A stretch of 64,000 nt of DNA from Catonella massiliensis (GTDB lineage Bacteria > Bacillota > Clostridia > Lachnospirales > Lachnospiraceae). Where the stretch lies: assembly GCF_016651435.1 (NCBI RefSeq), contig NZ_JAEPRJ010000001.1, forward strand, positions 1,488,001-1,552,000, read 5' to 3'. Positions within the stretch are counted from its first letter, which is position 1, and each line of letters begins with the position of its first letter. Shown here in pieces: positions 44,650 to 64,000 of the stretch. The position numbers and the translations under genes are program-made. The notes beneath the pieces were generated by a model that ran no database searches, had not been told where the DNA came from, and worked only from the letters and a program-made list of their open reading frames with translations.

Positions 44650-47610
44650 TTACTTTAACTTGAAGCTAAAGGTACCGTTTACTCCACCTGCGAAGGTAAC
44701 CTGAACAGTAACCATATCACCTGCTGCCGCACCGTTGAAGGTTACTCTGGTTGTATTGTTCCAATCAGCTGTCACCTTGCCTGATGCAGAAGATACAAGT
44801 CTGATTCCCTGAAGTGTGTTCTTAGCAAGTGCGCTTGAAGCAGCAACACCATTTTCGGCTGCAGTATATCTATCAGTTATAACAAGTGCATCTCTTATTC
44901 CGTTAACTGTAAGACTGCCAGCTGGAAGCTCTGAAGTTGCAGCCTCAACCTTAGTAACTAAAGGAGCCTTTGCAGAAACTACTACGTCCTTAGATGCTGT
45001 TGATCCCTTACCATCATTGACAACGGCTGTAACTGTATCGGTAAAATCTCCTCTTTTAGCCTCTTCTTTACCACGGCTAGGAACTACTTTGTCACCAGCT
45101 ACTAAGTTCTTGGTATCTCTTAACTCAAAGTTATTATCTCCAATCTGTACAGTTGTACCATCAGAGGTCTTACCTGTAACTACAGCGCTAACTGAGTCAT
45201 AGCCTGTATTACCATCTGCACTGTATACAGCAGAAGGTAAGCTTAAGCTAAAGCTTGAGAGGCTCTTTATGTCAGCTGCTGTAACCTTAACATTTATCTC
45301 AGATCCTGCAACAGGGTTGTTTCCTGTAGCATCCTTGTAGATGGCAAATGTGAAGTCCTCTGACTCATTACCGTTAAGTACAGCATTGGAATCTGTAAAT
45401 TTAAGTGACTTAGAGTTTAACTCGCTTAACTTAACAAGAGTAACGTTGTTCGCCACAGCTGCGCCAGGAGCTGTAACTGTAAATCTTCCGTTTCCGCTCT
45501 TCTTTACTCCAAGGTAGTAGTTAGAATAAGCTGAAAGGCTTGAAAGCTCGCGGCCCTTGTTGTCAACTATCTTAACCTTAGGAAGTACATTCTCTGTAGT
45601 ACCACCCTTAAGAACACCATCAACTGAAATGCTTCTGATGTTTGAAGGAACTGCAGGTGCATATACTGTAAAGGTTGTGATTGCAGGCTGCATATTGGAC
45701 TGTACTGTAAATACAGCATTTGTTGTAATCTGTGTAAGTCCCTGGCTCCATGTTACGTTTTTAACTGAATTATCCTTGGTTGCGTCATACTTAAGTTTAG
45801 CTGTTCCATTAGCTGTATTCTCCCAGGAGAAGGCCTCAGGAAGCTTAACGCCATACTTGTCACTGCTAAGTGTAGCATAGTCTGTTACAGCCTGACCAGC
45901 AGGGTTAGTAGCATTAAAATTAAAGTATGTTGACTCTCCTGCATATACTTCTGAAGGAGCAGTTACACTAAACTTAGATACCTGCTTTGTGCCTGCTATC
46001 TTAATTGTTGTAGAAGTAGTATTGTTTCCGCTTGTTCCATAAAGTGCAACAAAGTTCACAGTTACATCACCAGACTTAACATCATTTATGCCTGTGAAAG
46101 GAATTGCAATGTAGTCAACTCCGTCCACCTCGAGTGTATCGTGGTAAACAGTAGAACTATTGATACCAAGACCTGTAAGACCACCGTTTGCATAGATGCT
46201 TACACCGTCCGTAGACTTCATACTTCTACCATACTGGTCTTTAACTTCTACAAGAAGCCTTGCGTTGTTATTGTCTGAGCTGTTTACCGTAAGCTCATAA
46301 GGCTTCTTTGTTACTGTGCTATATACACCCTTTACAGACACTGAGCTTGCCTTTGCCTTTGCTGCAAGTGTAAGCTGGAATGTATTAGTAATGGTGTTCA
46401 TTCCATCAACCTTTACAAGAGTAAGGGTTACAGGTGTGTTAAGTGGAAGATTGGCTGCAATGTTAGTTACGTCAATAACGCCCTTAGCAGGATTAGCAGT
46501 ACCTGTACCTGCTGAAACATTTACATTAAGTCCTCCAACACTCTTTGTTACATCCTCACCAAACTGGTTTGTAATCTTATACTCGATTGTACCACCTGCT
46601 GCATTGGTATCTCCGTTTAATACAAGGTACTTGTTAGGAACATCAATCTTAGAAAGCTTAGCTGTCTCTCCCTTGAAAGAAGATGTCTTGCCACCAAATT
46701 CAACTGTATAGTCACCATCAGTTATGTTAGCTGTCATCTCAAGCACAGCCTCTGTTCCTGCGGCATTTACGCTAACGCTTGTTATATCTCTTATACCGCC
46801 TGCAAGCTTTACTGAATAGTCACTCTTGTTTGCTGTAAGATTATTGCCTGTAACTGTAATCTTTCTTGCTCCTGTCTGCTTGCCGCCGAACTTAGCAGCA
46901 ACTACAACCTTGATTCTTGCAGTTACCTTAAACTTGTCTGAGTTAGCCTTAGCTGCACTGCTCTGGCTTCCTACAACATCTACGTAGCTCTCACCAGCCT
47001 TAACACCGGTAACGGTGAAGGTCTTAGCGCTTGCCTTAGCCTTTGTTACTGAAGCAGCTCCTGAGTTGTCAACTAATACATAGCTGTTGTAAGTAGAAGA
47101 CTTTCCGCCTGCCTTAGCAATCTTATCAGATATCTTGTAGCTTACATTAAGTGTCTTGCTCTCGCCCTCTGTTAATCTGATTTCAGATACATCCACACCA
47201 TTGTCATTAACAGCTACACTTTCAGCTCTGGTATATACCTTAACAAGTGCTTTATATTTCTTGTTCTTATATACTGCTGTGATAATTGCCTTACCATTTT
47301 TCTTTGCGGTAAGCTTTCCGTTTTTCTTATTTACACTAAGAACGCTTCCCTTTGAGCTGGTCCACTTAACCTTCTTAGAAATGTTCTTTCCCTTAACAAT
47401 AAGGTCAAGATCTAACTTCTTACCACCGATAAATACTGAAGTACCCTTCTTAGAAGAATATACTGTCTTCTTGCCGTGTGATACTATACCATTCTTTGTG
47501 GCTGCCTTAGCTTCCTCTGCACTAAATCCAGGTACAAAGCTAAGTCCCATTGAAAGTGCAAGTGCTAATGAAAGACCCTTAACTGCCTTGTTCATACTCT
47601 TTTTTCTCAT
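44650..47610 (-). CDS. Large secreted Ig-like (Big_2) surface protein
   Basis: Protein of 986 residues with a signal peptide (KGLSLALALSMGLSFVPG, ending near EEAKAA). A bacterial Ig-like domain of the Big_2 kind follows (VKWTSSKGSVLSVNKKNGKL, AIITAVYKNKKYKALVKVY), and the rest is a chain of beta-rich Ig-like repeats with high Ser, Thr, Val, Ala and Asn. No LPxTG sorting motif or S-layer homology domain is seen at the ends, so attachment is unclear. GAGGAAAG lies before the ATG. Upstream (47648-47794) I see a TTGACA near 47755 and a TATACT near 47670 but no well-spaced pair. It could be an S-layer or adhesin-type protein and is expected to be abundant, given its strong terminator. Confidence 0.85.
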   Translation of the reverse strand: MRKKSMNKAVKGLSLALALSMGLSFVPGFSAEEAKAATKNGIVSHGKKTVYSSKKGTSVFIGGKKLDLDLIVKGKNISKKVKWTSSKGSVLSVNKKNGKLTAKKNGKAIITAVYKNKKYKALVKVYTRAESVAVNDNGVDVSEIRLTEGESKTLNVSYKISDKIAKAGGKSSTYNSYVLVDNSGAASVTKAKASAKTFTVTGVKAGESYVDVVGSQSSAAKANSDKFKVTARIKVVVAAKFGGKQTGARKITVTGNNLTANKSDYSVKLAGGIRDITSVSVNAAGTEAVLEMTANITDGDYTVEFGGKTSSFKGETAKLSKIDVPNKYLVLNGDTNAAGGTIEYKITNQFGEDVTKSVGGLNVNVSAGTGTANPAKGVIDVTNIAANLPLNTPVTLTLVKVDGMNTITNTFQLTLAAKAKASSVSVKGVYSTVTKKPYELTVNSSDNNNARLLVEVKDQYGRSMKSTDGVSIYANGGLTGLGINSSTVYHDTLEVDGVDYIAIPFTGINDVKSGDVTVNFVALYGTSGNNTTSTTIKIAGTKQVSKFSVTAPSEVYAGESTYFNFNATNPAGQAVTDYATLSSDKYGVKLPEAFSWENTANGTAKLKYDATKDNSVKNVTWSQGLTQITTNAVFTVQSNMQPAITTFTVYAPAVPSNIRSISVDGVLKGGTTENVLPKVKIVDNKGRELSSLSAYSNYYLGVKKSGNGRFTVTAPGAAVANNVTLVKLSELNSKSLKFTDSNAVLNGNESEDFTFAIYKDATGNNPVAGSEINVKVTAADIKSLSSFSLSLPSAVYSADGNTGYDSVSAVVTGKTSDGTTVQIGDNNFELRDTKNLVAGDKVVPSRGKEEAKRGDFTDTVTAVVNDGKGSTASKDVVVSAKAPLVTKVEAATSELPAGSLTVNGIRDALVITDRYTAAENGVAASSALAKNTLQGIRLVSSASGKVTADWNNTTRVTFNGAAAGDMVTVQVTFAGGVNGTFSFKLK

Positions 47611-56156: not shown

Positions 56157-57044
56157 CTAGTCAAGTTTTAAGTCATCGGAAATATAATAATCCCAGCCTC
56201 GTTTTTCGCAGTATTTAGCTATCTTCTCCTCTAGCTCATCATCATCTTCCACGTATTCAGTAAGATAAATATGAACTCCTTTTTTGGAAAGCTTCGTAAG
56301 ATAATCCGTATAATACTTTGTCACATCCTCTTTCTGAGTACCCGTATTTTCTCCATCCCAAAGTGAGAATACATCCTCCTGGTTTACTCCATCAGCTATC
56401 TTTTTAAGACTTTTATTCTCTTTAAGATATTTTGTTACGAATTCATCCCCGCCATTTATTATAAGAGCGGTATTCATCTTCTTTATACTTGTTAGTATCT
56501 TAACAAGCCCCTTATATATACTGTTCTTCTTATGCTGATAGTAGACATCTGTATTGTCTATAAAGAAGCCGTCAACTCCCTTTTTCTTATATGCCTTAGC
56601 AAGCCTTAGCATTTCTTTCTGCCAGCCCTTATCAGCTACATTTACCCAGTACTCACTCTTCCAGCCCTCGTATTCAGAAAGAGCCAAGTTCTTGAATTTC
56701 TTATAGTAAGGCCTATAGTCCTCAAGTGAGCCTATGCTTAGATAGGTATATACCTTCTTACCCGCTTTTTTTAGCTTTTTAATGTCAGCCTTAGTAAAAA
56801 GCTCTGCATCTATAATCACTGTCTGATAGTCATTAAGCTTGTCTATGTCTTTTCTACCAATTCCTATAAATACCCCAAAGCGCTTATCATAGTCATAATC
56901 AGCAGCCTTGGCCTTTATTAAAAATGCAAAGATGATAACAAAGATAATCATAGGCACAATAAAGATGGCTAAGGCTATGCGCCTGAGGCTCCTTATCTGC
57001 TTCTTTACTTCCTCTTCTCTTTCCTTATCATTCATCACTTCCAT
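56157..57044 (-). CDS. GH114-like (endo-alpha-1,4-polygalactosaminidase family) membrane-anchored protein
   Basis: Protein of 295 residues: cytosolic charged N-terminus, one helix (IALAIFIVPMIIFVIIFAFL), and an outside TIM-barrel domain of the GH114/TM1410 family (FGVFIGIGRKDIDKL, VYTYLSIGSLEDYRPYY, YWVNVADKGWQKEM, GVDGFFIDNTDVYYQ, ALIINGGDEF, VHIYLTEYV). The Asp in FFIDN is the likely catalytic or substrate-binding acid. Relatives cut galactosamine-rich exopolysaccharides. It follows a DUF5050-like gene by 12 bases, so the two probably act at the same place. Confidence 0.82.
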   Translation of the reverse strand: MEVMNDKEREEEVKKQIRSLRRIALAIFIVPMIIFVIIFAFLIKAKAADYDYDKRFGVFIGIGRKDIDKLNDYQTVIIDAELFTKADIKKLKKAGKKVYTYLSIGSLEDYRPYYKKFKNLALSEYEGWKSEYWVNVADKGWQKEMLRLAKAYKKKGVDGFFIDNTDVYYQHKKNSIYKGLVKILTSIKKMNTALIINGGDEFVTKYLKENKSLKKIADGVNQEDVFSLWDGENTGTQKEDVTKYYTDYLTKLSKKGVHIYLTEYVEDDDELEEKIAKYCEKRGWDYYISDDLKLD

Positions 57045-58232: not shown

Positions 58233-59363
58233 ATGATAGATTTAAGCGAAACAAGGGTAAAAATAGATGAAATAGACAGTAAGATAATCTCCTTATTTAA
58301 CGAGAGAATGAAGCTTGCAGATGATGTTGCTAACTATAAAATAGCCACAGGAAAGCCTGTATATGATGCTGTCCGTGAAAAAGAAAAGCTTCTGGTTATA
58401 GAGGGCTTTGGTGAGGATGATTTTGGCAAAACAGCACTAAGAGAGTTATTTACACAGATTATGTCAATCAGCCGCAAGTATCAGTACAGGAAGATTGCAG
58501 ACGTATCCAAAACTTCTTCATCCGTTACTTCTTATTCAGCAGATAACATAGGCTTCTTTGGTGGCAGCGGTACCTATACTGAAAGGGCTATGAAGGACTT
58601 CTTTGGAAATGATACCAAGGCTAAATCCTTTGATAGCTTTAAGAAGGTCTGTGAGGCTGTAGGTAATGGAAGTATAGAGTATGGTGTGCTTCCTATTGAG
58701 AACTCCACCACAGGGAGCATATCAGATATCTACGACTTACTTATGGAGTATGAGATTCATATAATAGGAGAGGCAATTGAGCCTATCGATCATGCTCTCT
58801 TAGGACTGCCTTCGGCAAACCTCGTTGACATAACAGAGGTATATTCACACCCTCAGCCACTGCTGCAGTGTTCGAATTTCCTCACAAAATACCCTGATTG
58901 GAATACCTTTGCCTATGGAAGCACATCAAAAAGCGCACTAAAGGTAAAAAATGACGGCAAGATAAACCAAGCCGCCATTGCAAGTAAGGCAAATGCAGAG
59001 TTCTACGGGCTTAAGGTGCTTGCAGAAAATATTGCCAATGACACCCTTAACGCTACCCGCTTCATAGTAATAGGAAAAGGCGGTAACTACCTTGAAAATG
59101 CTGATAAAATTAGCATCAGCTTTGAGATCCCTCATAAAACCGGCTCACTTTACAGCATACTTTCAAACTTCATATACAACAATATCAATATGACAAATAT
59201 AGAATCGAGGCCTATACCTAAGAGACGCTGGCAATACCGTTTCTTCGTTGACTTTGACGGCAACTTAAATGATGCAGGGGTAATAAACGCCATCACAGGT
59301 CTTAAGGCTGAAGCTGATAGCTTTACTCTGCTTGGAAACTATGTGGGGGCTGATAAAAAGTAA
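58233..59363 (+). CDS. pheA: Bifunctional chorismate mutase / prephenate dehydratase
   Basis: PheA of 376 residues makes phenylpyruvate for phenylalanine synthesis. Domains in order: AroQ chorismate mutase (about 1-90: DEIDSKIISLFNERMKLADD), prephenate dehydratase (about 105-285: FFGGSGTYTERAMKDFF, YGVLPIENSTTGSISDIYD, NDTLNATRFIVIG), and ACT regulatory domain (SISFEIPHKTGSLYSIL, IESRPIPKRRWQYRFFVDF) for feedback by phenylalanine. AAAGG lies seven bases before ATG 58233. It runs opposite to all neighbours and ends three bases from the racemase stop. Confidence 0.97.
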   Translation: MIDLSETRVKIDEIDSKIISLFNERMKLADDVANYKIATGKPVYDAVREKEKLLVIEGFGEDDFGKTALRELFTQIMSISRKYQYRKIADVSKTSSSVTSYSADNIGFFGGSGTYTERAMKDFFGNDTKAKSFDSFKKVCEAVGNGSIEYGVLPIENSTTGSISDIYDLLMEYEIHIIGEAIEPIDHALLGLPSANLVDITEVYSHPQPLLQCSNFLTKYPDWNTFAYGSTSKSALKVKNDGKINQAAIASKANAEFYGLKVLAENIANDTLNATRFIVIGKGGNYLENADKISISFEIPHKTGSLYSILSNFIYNNINMTNIESRPIPKRRWQYRFFVDFDGNLNDAGVINAITGLKAEADSFTLLGNYVGADKK

Positions 59364-59366
59364 GGC

Positions 59367-60047
59367 TTACTTTACCTTCGCTCCGCTTAGTTCAATGCTT
59401 CTTTTAACCAGCACATTTAGAGCATCAATAGTATTTATATCCTCAGGAATATCAAGGAGACTAAGCTCCGTACAGGCTATTATTCCAATTGTCTGTGGGT
59501 TGCAGTATCTCTTAAGCATGTCCACAAACCTGCTGCCATCTAAGTTATTGGTTTCCTTGATATTATATATTATATCCATTACAACCTGTTTGTCCTTAGC
59601 AGATACTTCCTTAACAAGAATACCATTCTCTCCGGCATATTTTTCATATACTCCTGAATTCAGAGTCCCCAGAGTTCCAAAGACTGCTATCTCTTTAATC
59701 CCTCTTTTTTTAACCTCAAGAATAGTCTCAGAAATCATGTTGATTATCCTAAGGTTTGTAAACTTCTTAAACTCGTCAAAGAAATAGTGGCTTGTGTTGC
59801 AGGGAATTGCAACCGCCTCTACACCTATATCCTCAAGTATTTTAAAATCTTTCTTTATAACCTCTAAAAACTCTCCGCCTTTATTTTCAATAATGCATTT
59901 CGTTCTGTCAGGCATGGATGCATGGCTTAAAACCACCATGTCTATGTGCTCATTGTCACATTTAGCTGCTGTATTAAGCACAACTCTCTCATAAAAGCTG
60001 ACTGTAGCCAAAGGCCCCATGCCTCCGATAACTCCTAATTTATACAC
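59367..60047 (-). CDS. Aspartate/glutamate racemase family protein
   Basis: Racemase of 226 residues with the two catalytic cysteines of the cofactor-free family: AVAIPCNTSHYFFDE and IGIIACTELSLLD. The opening KLGVIGGMGPLATVSFY and the PCNTSH motif are typical of aspartate racemase more than of MurI glutamate racemase. The start is GTG at 60047 with GGAGG five bases before it, overlapping the stop of the ATP-grasp ligase by one base, so the two are made together. In Enterococcus faecium an aspartate racemase and D-aspartate ligase form such a pair. Product would be D-aspartate. Confidence 0.9.
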   Translation of the reverse strand: MYKLGVIGGMGPLATVSFYERVVLNTAAKCDNEHIDMVVLSHASMPDRTKCIIENKGGEFLEVIKKDFKILEDIGVEAVAIPCNTSHYFFDEFKKFTNLRIINMISETILEVKKRGIKEIAVFGTLGTLNSGVYEKYAGENGILVKEVSAKDKQVVMDIIYNIKETNNLDGSRFVDMLKRYCNPQTIGIIACTELSLLDIPEDINTIDALNVLVKRSIELSGAKVK

Positions 60048-61237
60048 TATTTCCTCCTAAATATCTTCTTAAAGGCTTTGCCAAGCAGTCGTTTGTTAAA
60101 GAAGAACCAAGGTGCCATATCATCTGCGGCAAAGATGGCAGGAGCCCATTTTCTTGAAAAGGATATCCTTAAGGACTTTAAGATGCCTACCTGTCCTGTC
60201 TTCTTATATCTGAGGATGGCAACTATATCCTCAAAACCATATATAAACGCATATCTTGTATTATAATTTATGAACTTGGTGTCACTCTCCTTTAGGCCGC
60301 CTGTAAGGTCAAGATAAGCAATGTAAGGCATATTGATACCACATTTATATATCATGTTGTTAAAGTTGGTTGTTCTTGCATTTATCTCAATGAGGTAAAT
60401 CTCTCCTGTCTTTTCGTGCTTCTTAAACTCTATCTCTCCAAAGCCCCTATAGCCTATATTCTCAAGGAAAGGCTTTGATATCTCAACAAGCTTTGGATTG
60501 TATTTTTGAATGGTAAATACTGAAGCACCAAAGTTAATAGGCCACTGGCGCTGCTTTTGTGCAGTTAAATAATGGGTGGTCTTTCCACTCCTTGCAATAT
60601 AAAAATCGTAGGTCAGCATACAGTCATCAAAGCCCGGCACTATCTCCTGTACAAAGATTTCAATGTCATTATCCTTTGCCTTCTTTATACCTACTTCCAT
60701 CTCTTCAAGGTTCTTGCAGATGAAGACCTTGTTTCTAAATACCTTGGTGAACTTAACTGTATCAAAAGGCTTGATTATACAAGGAAATCCTACTTCATTC
60801 TTAACTCTCTCCACCAGATTCTCATCGTTTACGCTAATGGTTGCAGGGATTTTCACGCCATTTTCAAGAGCTATATCGTGTAAGGTCCACTTGTCAAGAA
60901 GCTTGGAATTAAGTCCCTTTGCCTGGCTGATTAAGTAGTACTTTGAAAGCTCATCATAGTATTTGTCTATGAATTCCACGTACTTATCGTGTGTCGGCAA
61001 AAGAACAGGCTTTTCTGACTGCTTTTTTCCATACTCAACTAGACCGGTAAAGGCTTCTTCTCCGAACTTGTTCAGATTGTCAATCTTTAAGAATTCAGAT
61101 ACGAACTTGGACTTTGCTCCATAAGCATTCTTTAAGTCGTAGTCACAAGCTACAACGTGAACGCCCTCCCTGCCCAAGCACCTGATTACACTAAGTCCGA
61201 TATAATAATTGCATCCTAATACTACTGCCTTATTCAT
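60047..61237 (-). CDS. ATP-grasp ligase, D-aspartate ligase-like
   Basis: Protein of 396 residues with a preATP-grasp domain (KAVVLGCNYYIGLSVIRCLG), the ATP-grasp lid and core (FPCIIKPFDTVKF, IFVQEIVPGFDD) and the metal site near GEIEFKKHEKTGEIYLIEINART. The general plan and size match Aslfm of E. faecium, which links D-aspartate to the peptidoglycan stem peptide. The overlap with an aspartate racemase gene and the adjacent amidotransferase support this. Carboxylate-amine ligases of other pathways share the fold, so substrate is inferred. GAGG precedes the ATG. Confidence 0.8.
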   Translation of the reverse strand: MNKAVVLGCNYYIGLSVIRCLGREGVHVVACDYDLKNAYGAKSKFVSEFLKIDNLNKFGEEAFTGLVEYGKKQSEKPVLLPTHDKYVEFIDKYYDELSKYYLISQAKGLNSKLLDKWTLHDIALENGVKIPATISVNDENLVERVKNEVGFPCIIKPFDTVKFTKVFRNKVFICKNLEEMEVGIKKAKDNDIEIFVQEIVPGFDDCMLTYDFYIARSGKTTHYLTAQKQRQWPINFGASVFTIQKYNPKLVEISKPFLENIGYRGFGEIEFKKHEKTGEIYLIEINARTTNFNNMIYKCGINMPYIAYLDLTGGLKESDTKFINYNTRYAFIYGFEDIVAILRYKKTGQVGILKSLRISFSRKWAPAIFAADDMAPWFFFNKRLLGKAFKKIFRRK

Positions 61238-61324
61238 TGCTTCTACCTCGTATATATTGATGTTAATGCCAAAAGTATAGCTCCTTACAGTGCAGCATTG
61301 CTGCTATTTGCCTTCTTACAAATC

Positions 61325-63160
61325 TTATGCTGCCGCTCCTTTAAAGTAGATTTCATACCATTTTAAGAAGGTATAGATAGTATATACCTTACGTCCGTTA
61401 TTGGTTATGCCGTTAAAATGGTCATCTAAGAGCTTGTTTATCTTATCTTTATCAAAGAACTCACTTACAAAGTCTTTGTTAAAGACTTCCTTAACTATTT
61501 TATAATACTTCTCTTCCTTAATCCATAACACAAAAGGCACAACAAAGCCTAGCTTCCTACGCTTTGCCCAGTCTTCAGGAAGTTTGTTCTTGGCAGCCCT
61601 TCTAAAGGCATACTTGGTTATCTCGTTATGTACCTTATGTCTGACAGGGATAGTTCTTGCAAGCTCCCACATCTTTTTGTCAAGAAGAGGCACTCTAAGC
61701 TCTATGGAATTTGCCATAGTCATCTTGTCAGCTTTAAGAAGGATGTCCTCTACTATCCACATCTTCATATCCAGATAAAGCCTTTTTGAGACATCATCCA
61801 TATTTTTAACTTCGTCATAGTATTTCTTAGTCAAATCCCTTGAGGTCTCAGCATTCTTATACTTAGAGGTGACAAGGGAATTCGCAAGCTCATCCGTCAT
61901 GATCTCTGCAGGCCCTATGTATCTATCCTCTACCTTCTGACCGTATTTCAATATAATGGTCTGCCCCCTAAAATGCTTCCTATCCTTGTACTTCAAGTAG
62001 AGCTTATGTCTAAGGCTAAAAGGAAGCTTCCTATACATCCTCTGAGGTAGTGCATCTGCGTACTCATTGTAGCCTGCAAAAAGCTCGTCAGCACCTTCTC
62101 CTGAGAGCACCACCTTGACCTGCTCAGATGCAAGTTTTGAGAGGAAGTATAGAGGCACTGAGGAAAGGTTTGCGTGTGGCTCATCAGAATAATACTGCAC
62201 CTTATTGATGCCTTCGAAGAATTCATCAGGAGTAATCAGCTTTGCAAAGTTTTTAATGCCAAGGCTGTCCGAAAGCTCCTTTGCGTACATAGTTTCATTA
62301 AAGCCCTTGTTGTCAAAGCCCACTGAAAATGTCTTATCAGGCAGAGCTGTTGCCACCACATAGCTAGAGTCAACTCCACCTGAGAGGAAGGAGCCTACCT
62401 CTACATCGCTGATTTTATGGTATTTAACTGACTCTTCTACCTCTTTTTCTATCTTGCCCACAGCCTCATCAAAGGTCATGTCCTTATAATCAAGAGTAAG
62501 ATTATAGTAGGTCTTTATCTCCATTTTCCCATTTTCGTATATGTAATAATGCCCCGGTCTTAACTTCTTAACCCCCTTAAAGAAAGTCTCCTCTAGAGGA
62601 TTGTACTGAAAAACCAAATAATGCTTTAGTGCCTTTTCATTTACTGCCTTCTTAAACTTTGGGTACTTAAGGAAGGACTTAACCTCTGAGCCAAAGAGTA
62701 AGTCTCCATCAAGTAAAGCATAATAATAAGGCTTGATACCAAAGTGGTCTCTTGCACCAAAGAGCTTCTCCTTCTTGCTATCCCAGATAGTAAAAGCAAA
62801 CATCCCTCGAAGCTTAGCTAAAATTCCTTCTTCGCCGTATTCTTCATAGCCATGTAAGATAACTTCCGTATCTGTATGTGTCTTAAACTTGTAGCCCTTA
62901 GCCACAAGGTCCTCCCTAAGCTCCTGATAGTTATAGATTTCTCCGTTAAATATGATGGCTGTATCGCCGCTTTCATTTAATATAGGCTGAGAGCCCTCGT
63001 GCAAGTCAATGATACTAAGTCTTCTAAAGCCAAAGTTAACATCTTTGTCAAAATAATAACCATCACTGTCAGGACCACGGTGAATAATCTGGTTATTCAT
63101 CTCTTTTATTACATTTTTATCTTTTACATTTTTACTGCAAAATCCTACAAATCCACACAT
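61325..63160 (-). CDS. asnB: Glutamine-dependent asparagine synthetase-like amidotransferase (AsnB/AsnH)
   Basis: Enzyme of 611 residues. The class II glutaminase domain starts with catalytic Cys2 (MCGFVGFCS) and has IIHRGPDSDGYY, FGFRRLSIIDL and FNGEIYNYQELR; the synthetase domain has the PP-loop SGGVDSS at residues 260-266 and VLSGEGADELFAGYNEY. It is intact. Free asparagine synthesis is the default call, but the close row with a MurE-like ligase, D-Asp ligase and racemase recalls AsnH of Lactococcus lactis, which amidates D-Asp in the cell-wall bridge. GGAG precedes the ATG. Confidence 0.9.
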   Translation of the reverse strand: MCGFVGFCSKNVKDKNVIKEMNNQIIHRGPDSDGYYFDKDVNFGFRRLSIIDLHEGSQPILNESGDTAIIFNGEIYNYQELREDLVAKGYKFKTHTDTEVILHGYEEYGEEGILAKLRGMFAFTIWDSKKEKLFGARDHFGIKPYYYALLDGDLLFGSEVKSFLKYPKFKKAVNEKALKHYLVFQYNPLEETFFKGVKKLRPGHYYIYENGKMEIKTYYNLTLDYKDMTFDEAVGKIEKEVEESVKYHKISDVEVGSFLSGGVDSSYVVATALPDKTFSVGFDNKGFNETMYAKELSDSLGIKNFAKLITPDEFFEGINKVQYYSDEPHANLSSVPLYFLSKLASEQVKVVLSGEGADELFAGYNEYADALPQRMYRKLPFSLRHKLYLKYKDRKHFRGQTIILKYGQKVEDRYIGPAEIMTDELANSLVTSKYKNAETSRDLTKKYYDEVKNMDDVSKRLYLDMKMWIVEDILLKADKMTMANSIELRVPLLDKKMWELARTIPVRHKVHNEITKYAFRRAAKNKLPEDWAKRRKLGFVVPFVLWIKEEKYYKIVKEVFNKDFVSEFFDKDKINKLLDDHFNGITNNGRKVYTIYTFLKWYEIYFKGAAA

Positions 63161-63169
63161 ATTCTCTCC

Positions 63170-64000
63170 TTACATCCTGCCAAGAATCTCTCTTACCGTG
63201 TCTATCTCGCTGTATGGCAGATATTCGTTTCCTATTACCTGATAAGGCTCTACACCCTTTCCTGCAAGCAGTACTATATCTTCCTCACCTGCCATCTTTA
63301 AGGCGTGTTCAATGGCTTCTTTTCTATCTTCTATTACAGTGTAATTTGTTTTATCACAATCTGAAATGAGTCCCTCTACAATGTGGGCTATGCTCTCATT
63401 TCTAGGGTTATCAGCTGTAAATACAACCTCGTCCGAATTCTCAAGGGCAATCCTTCCCAAATCAGGCCTCATACTGGAGTCTCTGTTACCACCGCTATGC
63501 CCTATGAGGGTAATTATCCTCTTGTGCGGCACCTTGATTAAAGTTTTAAGCACATTTAAGAGTCCATCCGGAGTATGTGCAAAGTCTATAATTATCTTAT
63601 AGCCCTTATCCGTATGAAGAACTTCCATCCTTCCGCCCACTCCGGTAAAGCTCTTTAGGGCTTTAGCACTTTCTTCAATCCCGATTCCTTTAGCATAGGC
63701 AGCAGATATAGCCGCAAGCACATTGTATACATTAAATACACCCACCAGGTGGGTCTCTATCTTATATACATCGCCTAAAAAATGCAAATCAAACTTCATC
63801 TTCCAGTCATCAAAGCTTATATTGTCCGCATAAAAATCTGCACTTTTATCATTTATTCCGTATGTAATCACCTCTGCAGGAGTATGGAGTCTGTATTCCC
63901 TTGAGTGCTCATCATCTATGTTTAGCACAGCAGTCTTTAATTTCCCGTTTTTAACAGTATGCCCAAGCTGGGTAAATAAGAGCTCCTTGGTGCGGGCATA
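63170..64000 (-). CDS. MurE-like UDP-MurNAc-tripeptide ligase, C-terminal part
   Basis: Partial: the frame is open at the window edge (YARTKELLFTQLG is the first visible part) and ends at 63170, giving 276 residues. Mur ligase middle and C-terminal domains are clear: GVFNVYNVLAAISAAYA, GVGGRMEVL, IIIDFAHTPDGLLNVLK, and the amino-acid-recognition motif DNPR in FTADNPRNES, which in known MurE enzymes marks meso-diaminopimelate use. The usual AGKGHE motif reads LAGKGVEPYQ here. It precedes asnB by nine bases. It may be the main murE or a second copy tied to this cluster. Confidence 0.88.
   Translation of the reverse strand, partial: YARTKELLFTQLGHTVKNGKLKTAVLNIDDEHSREYRLHTPAEVITYGINDKSADFYADNISFDDWKMKFDLHFLGDVYKIETHLVGVFNVYNVLAAISAAYAKGIGIEESAKALKSFTGVGGRMEVLHTDKGYKIIIDFAHTPDGLLNVLKTLIKVPHKRIITLIGHSGGNRDSSMRPDLGRIALENSDEVVFTADNPRNESIAHIVEGLISDCDKTNYTVIEDRKEAIEHALKMAGEEDIVLLAGKGVEPYQVIGNEYLPYSEIDTVREILGRM

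Follow-up and report, generated by a model that had tools for sequence, protein, structure and literature searches.

Four adjoining genes at the end of a 64,000-nucleotide stretch of the Catonella massiliensis genome (the whole stretch analysed here, referred to as the window) raise the question of whether this bacterium builds D-aspartate or D-asparagine into its peptidoglycan and from where it obtained the means to do so. The first-pass annotation had proposed a candidate D-Asp/D-Asn wall cluster, and this is supported by comparative evidence, namely the recurrence of the genes, their phylogenetic trees and the presence of AsnA as another source of asparagine. Whole or partial versions of the gene set are also found in distant Bacillota, in combination with either of two ATP-grasp subfamilies. 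We consider it probable that a horizontally acquired wall-peptide operon took over an essential step in Catonella, with a Lys-D-Asp/D-Asn wall as the predicted outcome.

The four genes form a tight row on the minus strand, with gaps of 9 and 87 bases and a 1-base overlap (Table 1), and these coordinates match the initial description. The murE gene runs past the window edge and encodes 492 amino acids when completed outside the window (L002 4171-5649, minus). The upstream neighbour is divergent (L002 5860-7167, plus) and the downstream neighbour pheA is convergent (58233-59363, plus), and the four genes are thus a closed unit in this genome of 3.12 Mb. A promoter scan was uninformative (14 promoter-like sites versus 16.8 expected). 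An IS1380-family transposase lies about 12 kb upstream of the operon (L002 17887-18999). Elsewhere in the window, a 986-residue frame (44650-47610) has no match in NCBIfam (E up to 1e-15) or Pfam (E up to 1e-5), and positions 56157-57044 give a weak match, under its cut-off, to the MJ1477/TM1410 putative glycoside hydrolase family.

Table 1. Genes of the operon, in window coordinates.
Feature	Position	Strand	Basis and remarks
Racemase, Asp/Glu-type, 226 aa	59367-60047	minus	open reading frame; TIGR00035
ATP-grasp ligase, 396 aa	60047-61237	minus	open reading frame; predicted D-aspartate ligase, subfamily distinct from AslA type
AsnB/AsnH-type glutamine-dependent amidotransferase, 611 aa	61325-63160	minus	TIGR01536; Cys2, SGGVDSS
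murE, 3' part	63170-64000 (window edge)	minus	whole gene continues to G000:C1:1552648

A scan of the genome with TIGR01085 gives one full-length match, the operon MurE (485.9 bits; cut-off 257.3), followed by a runner-up of 60.1 bits; the operon MurE is the genome's only MurE. An accessory paralogue is ruled out, as no other MurE in the genome exceeds the cut-off. The MurE named in the first-pass annotation is confirmed, with the correction that it is the sole MurE of the genome and is foreign. It is 77% identical to the MurE of Parvimonas micra, an oral bacterium unrelated to Catonella, and 44-47% identical to the five nearest Bacillaceae MurEs. Its identity is 32-38% to the main Lachnospiraceae MurE clade (26 of 26 rows), 34-37% to the MurEs of three genomes of its own GTDB genus (G001, G002 and G004) and 30-33% to a separate Lachnospiraceae clade mostly found beside AslA-type ligases. 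Yardstick identities between the Catonella genome and P. micra are 37% for MurC, 31% for MurF, 28% for MurD, 64% for AsnS and 59% for AsnA, where the Catonella MurF was named by profile scan and the other Mur proteins by reading their sequences. In a tree of 73 MurE sequences, from which L163 (P. sp. oral taxon 393; frame from an internal start) and L174 (a second row from the L165 genome) were left out, the window, C. morbi and P. micra sequences form one clade (support 100/100). This clade joins Bacillaceae and Paenibacillaceae MurEs (99/98), apart from the Lachnospiraceae rows; its stem is long (1.0 changes per column), which makes the exact sister less sure. GC and GC3 values give no sign of foreign origin, and composition looks native.

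The place where a native murE would be expected is empty. In all three genomes of the same GTDB genus that were examined (G004, G001 and G002), dapF, murE and murF follow each other on one strand. In both Catonella genomes dapF and murF are present without murE, spaced by 13 bases in the window's genome and by 100 bases in C. morbi. At 49-63% identity to their counterparts in the three genus members, dapF and murF of Catonella are ordinary in this respect. Of two further relatives, G013 has murE-murF without an adjacent dapF and G007 has murE without either neighbour. Since murE is absent from the dapF-murF site of Catonella while the genus members keep it, the foreign murE appears to have displaced the native one; loss of the native gene, with the operon MurE doing its work, is the simplest explanation.

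Clues to the third residue added by this enzyme come from its motifs and from the genomes that share it. The DNPR motif in MurE is usually read as mDAP-type. The Catonella MurE keeps DNPR, while GKGVE is found where other DNPR MurEs have GKGHE. The histidine of GKGHE is kept in all 41 other DNPR MurEs and is V or A in the Catonella/Parvimonas type, in which the GC-GG loop near this site is also altered by an insertion. Among 31 genomes examined, dapF is missing from ten and dapB from five; both are absent from all three Parvimonas genomes, an Erysipelotrichaceae MAG and Soehngenia, and both are present in Catonella. The Parvimonas-type MurE is the only MurE above cut-off in P. micra, which without dapB and dapF should not make mDAP, and this MurE thus probably adds L-Lys. 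DNPR alone was dropped as proof of mDAP on account of the missing dapB and dapF. We take L-Lys to be most likely in Catonella, where dapB and dapF may be needed for lysine anyway. A separate, divergent MurE clade (L079, L102, L113 and others) lacks a DNPx motif and has CQGMD where others have GKGHE. The top-scoring MurE of P. parva (just under the cut-off), Soehngenia and Acidaminobacter comes from this clade, which suggests a different third residue, for example Orn or Lys.

The ATP-grasp protein had been described as D-aspartate-ligase-like. A distant relationship to the AslA type is found, while membership of that subfamily is not. The protein passes no NCBIfam cut-off; in Pfam, CPSase_L_D2 and Dala_Dala_lig_C are passed narrowly or in part and ATPgrasp_Ter is missed by 0.1 bit. 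Its identity is 18-23% to single AslA-type members and 18-19% to two lactobacillar proteins (L062 and L063), the AslA-type label being given by gene order (the lactobacillar genes adjoin one for a racemase or for AsnB, an arrangement published for L. lactis in PMC4155827). A profile of the protein aligns to an AslA-type profile over 281 columns with 25% identity and a probability of 99.9. Placement in the AslA/Aslfm subfamily was rejected on the two lactobacillar identities and on this profile alignment, and judging from these comparisons the protein is related to the AslA type as a distinct subfamily. The structure is predicted with confidence (pLDDT 90.3, pTM 0.89) and has an ATP-grasp fold. 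In a fold search (best 50) biotin carboxylases lead the matches, which also include BacD and PylC, both amino acid ligases. PylC forms a bond between a D-amino acid and the amino group in the side chain of lysine, which is the type of linkage proposed here. Residues Lys116, Lys156, Glu270, Glu284, Asn286 and Arg288, which we take to be ATP/Mg-type residues, are invariant in an alignment of 37 rows.

C. morbi ATCC 51271 has an ATP-grasp protein that shares 95% identity with the one in the window. A search of 145 genomes of relatives gives any match in 35 and an identity of at least 47% in four only: the window's genome, C. morbi (G003), G122 (50%) and G094 (48%), the last two from other families of the order. 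The gene neighbourhoods were surveyed for the best 80 of 193 confirmed relatives, which had been found by the ATP-grasp profile alone. The association with the partner genes goes beyond chance: within 5.5 kb and on the same strand, a MurE-family gene is present in 69 of these 80 loci, a racemase in 54 and an AsnB-like gene in 33; the MurE-family gene is directly beside the ATP-grasp gene (within 250 bases) in 63. MurE and racemase are both nearby in 50 and all four genes in 23, while seven loci have none of the three partners. In nine of the 23 four-gene loci (L072, L074-L077, L082, L095, L113 and L118) the AsnB is only 33-39% identical. More distant ATP-grasp relatives (about 29%) adjoin glycosyltransferases in Priestia and Cytobacillus.

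The racemase scores 150.7 bits with the amino acid racemase model TIGR00035 (cut-off 93.1), a model that cannot tell racemases of Asp, Glu and cysteate apart, and 165.9 bits with the CuyB model, where 190 are needed. It has two candidate catalytic cysteines, in PCNT and ACTE, which are presumably the catalytic pair, and it is predicted to supply D-Asp. AsnB scores 532.8 bits with the asparagine synthase model TIGR01536 (cut-off 267.1). In a genome scan it is the sole strong asparagine-synthase match (285.2 bits), the second one (21.3) being barely over the cut-off of 21, and a protein search of the genome also gives one AsnB match. It combines asparagine-synthase architecture and Cys2 with linkage to a D-Asp-ligase-like gene and another Asn source in the genome, as looked for in an AsnH. 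AsnS is present in all eight genomes examined, so free Asn is used. AsnA is found in 11 of 14 genomes examined, including both Catonella genomes, P. micra, P. parva and both S. cuniculi genomes, and was not found in G004, G122 and P. sp. oral taxon 393. As AsnA is another source of free asparagine, AsnB is left free for wall amidation. A role of AsnB in making free asparagine is thereby weakened, and the predicted target of amidation by the enzyme is D-Asp after its ligation or some other carboxyl group of the wall.

In the AsnB trees the clade of the window joins the AsnB of a Lachnospiraceae four-gene cluster (L055; 100/100). The AsnBs of G001, G002 and G004 are in another clade (99/97) that also holds L054 (beside an AslA-type gene) and L056 and L058 (near one), and a third group is made up of AsnBs from the Bacillaceae clusters. 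The AsnB of L. crispatus that is encoded next to an AslA-type gene sits on a long branch and is not firmly placed. Rows L072, L078, L113 and L118 were included in the first tree and left out of the second; three of the nine distant cluster AsnBs were placed in the first tree, where they form a clade of their own. A phylogeny putting the ATP-grasp enzyme and AsnB in unrelated pathways, which the first-pass annotation had set as its refuting result, was not found in the trees examined.

The four-gene order is not unique to Catonella. P. micra and P. sp. oral taxon 393 share the full set of four in an unchanged order, with identities to Catonella of 76-77% for MurE, 86-88% for AsnB, 87% for the ATP-grasp protein and 71% for the racemase. 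In P. parva, AsnB (85%), ATP-grasp (81%) and racemase (74%) genes lie behind a different MurE. Two strains of Streptococcus cuniculi carry AsnB (82%), ATP-grasp (76-77%) and racemase (63-65%) genes without a linked MurE; both lack dapF and have elsewhere in the genome a DDPN-type MurE, which we assume to be Lys-type. An Erysipelotrichaceae MAG has the ATP-grasp and racemase genes together and an AsnB of 72% identity elsewhere. AsnB trees nest Catonella inside Parvimonas (100/97), while ATP-grasp and racemase trees keep the two apart with weaker support (82/79 and 87/55). Transfer of the operon is well supported; we infer its direction, which is less so.

The MurE slot of the Parvimonas operon (L070 3550-5085 compared with L067 3604-5079) holds two very different MurE types, a DNPR type in P. 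micra and a non-DNPR type in P. parva, and murE seems to have been swapped in place within this genus, beside conserved downstream genes. Convergent to the Parvimonas operon is an acyltransferase-3 protein (PF01757; L067 8888-10813), which possibly acts on the envelope. The S. cuniculi trio (L068 3986-7920) belongs to the same clade and predicts a D-Asp/D-Asn bridge, which to our knowledge is not expected in Streptococcus.

For some carriers the wall type is known. The wall of Halobacillus contains L-Orn-D-Asp and that of P. micra L-Lys-D-Asp. An excerpt of PMC4062624 gives the carrier Ornithinibacillus as type A4beta and Oceanobacillus as A1gamma. O. profundus carries the cluster and O. piezotolerans part of it, and ten of ten Bacillaceae genomes examined, including Ornithinibacillus, also keep a canonical DNPR MurE. 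Taken together, the A1gamma wall of Oceanobacillus and this second MurE indicate that the cluster need not shape the main wall everywhere; it may be an extra in Bacillaceae, while in Catonella it holds the only MurE. Among the matches listed, no literature was found on the operon or on Catonella wall chemistry, and none on Catonella together with diaminopimelic acid.

In the model that we prefer, MurE would add the third stem residue, most likely L-Lys, and the racemase would make D-Asp. The ATP-grasp ligase would activate D-Asp and couple it to the amino group in the side chain of this third residue, after which AsnB would convert it by amidation into D-Asn or D-isoAsn. An A4-type wall (third residue-D-Asp/D-Asn) would result, replacing the mDAP wall expected from the native MurE of relatives. 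We infer each substrate and product of this scheme.

Other readings of the operon have to be weighed against this one, chiefly mDAP in place of Lys and D-Glu in place of D-Asp. The acquired MurE could still add mDAP, with the ligase placing D-Asp on it to give an A4gamma wall; DNPR, the presence of dapB and dapF in Catonella and the kinship with canonical Bacillaceae and Paenibacillaceae MurEs all fit. Yet P. micra, which lacks dapB and dapF, shares this MurE, the otherwise constant His of GKGHE is replaced and the GC-GG loop is altered, and A4gamma with mDpm is given in the excerpt of PMC4062624 as reported only from Dermabacteraceae, so that we regard this as unlikely. D-Glu rather than D-Asp might instead be made and attached (A4 with D-Glu), AsnB amidating either the added D-Glu or that of the stem. 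The racemase model does not distinguish these substrates, but P. micra has L-Lys-D-Asp. ATP-grasp ligases are also credited with D-Glu cross-links in part of PMC2922099, and an excerpt of PMC3035230 lists L-Lys-D-Glu for Anaerococcus prevotii, another anaerobic coccus; AsnB is, however, of the asparagine-synthase type, and the known AsnH amidates D-Asp according to a passage in PMC4155827. This reading strikes us as quite improbable.

The same low weight is given to AsnB being a mere neighbour of the D-Asp genes that amidates mDAP or makes free asparagine. It directly follows murE, AsnS shows that free Asn is used, and L. plantarum asnB1 goes with mDAP amidation in the passage of PMC4155827 concerned; against this, AsnA is present, and AsnB, ATP-grasp and racemase genes move together even where no MurE is linked to them (S. 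cuniculi) or a different one is (P. parva). That the operon serves a peptide metabolite or an envelope polymer other than peptidoglycan would accord with the glycosyltransferases beside the more distant ATP-grasp relatives and with the seven of the best 80 of 193 loci that have none of the partners. A MurE-family gene is nevertheless the commonest of the three partners in that survey, and the MurE of Catonella must serve the wall because it is the only one in the genome; we hold this possibility to be very remote.

In its widest form, our proposal is that one operon transfer followed by clean loss of native murE switched Catonella (two genomes) from the mDAP wall of its relatives to a Lys-D-Asp/D-Asn wall. 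Peptidoglycan type, which has long been used as a stable taxonomic marker, would then behave as a portable cassette that brings along a D-Asp ligase subfamily not described before. We put this forward tentatively, at slightly less than even confidence. If true, the chemistry of the cell wall can travel as one unit between unrelated bacteria, an essential native gene being lost later. A second subfamily of D-Asp ligases, distributed across Bacillota, would also be indicated. NOD1 is said in an excerpt of PMC11555704 to recognise specifically structures with mDAP, and the wall type thus bears on host sensing of oral Catonella. The prediction is directly testable in the culturable type strain C. 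morbi ATCC 51271.

The closest functional parallels are aslA-racD with asnH in L. lactis and lactobacilli and Aslfm in E. faecium, which, like the scheme predicted for the Catonella operon, combine a racemase, an ATP-grasp D-Asp ligase and D-Asp amidation of the asparagine-synthase type (excerpt of PMC4155827; lactobacillar gene neighbourhoods). In L. lactis, racD shares an operon with aslA and D-Asp is amidated by AsnH after ligation (same excerpt), and part of PMC3885529 has L. casei AsnH acting in peptidoglycan synthesis. In contrast to these systems, MurE and AsnB share the operon in Catonella, and its ATP-grasp protein belongs to another subfamily than the lactobacillar AslA type (18-19%, AslA-type being named by gene order). 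A Lachnospiraceae four-gene cluster (G081, L055) likewise has ATP-grasp, racemase, MurE and AsnB in one row, but with an AslA-type ATP-grasp protein, a MurE of another clade and a different gene order; dapF is absent in G081, and the best model for the MurE of this cluster is the L-lysine ligase PRK14022, below its cut-off. The operon of P. micra and P. sp. oral taxon 393 differs in that its host lineage lacks dapB and dapF and that P. parva has another MurE in the slot, and it matches Catonella in genes and order, with 71-88% identity.
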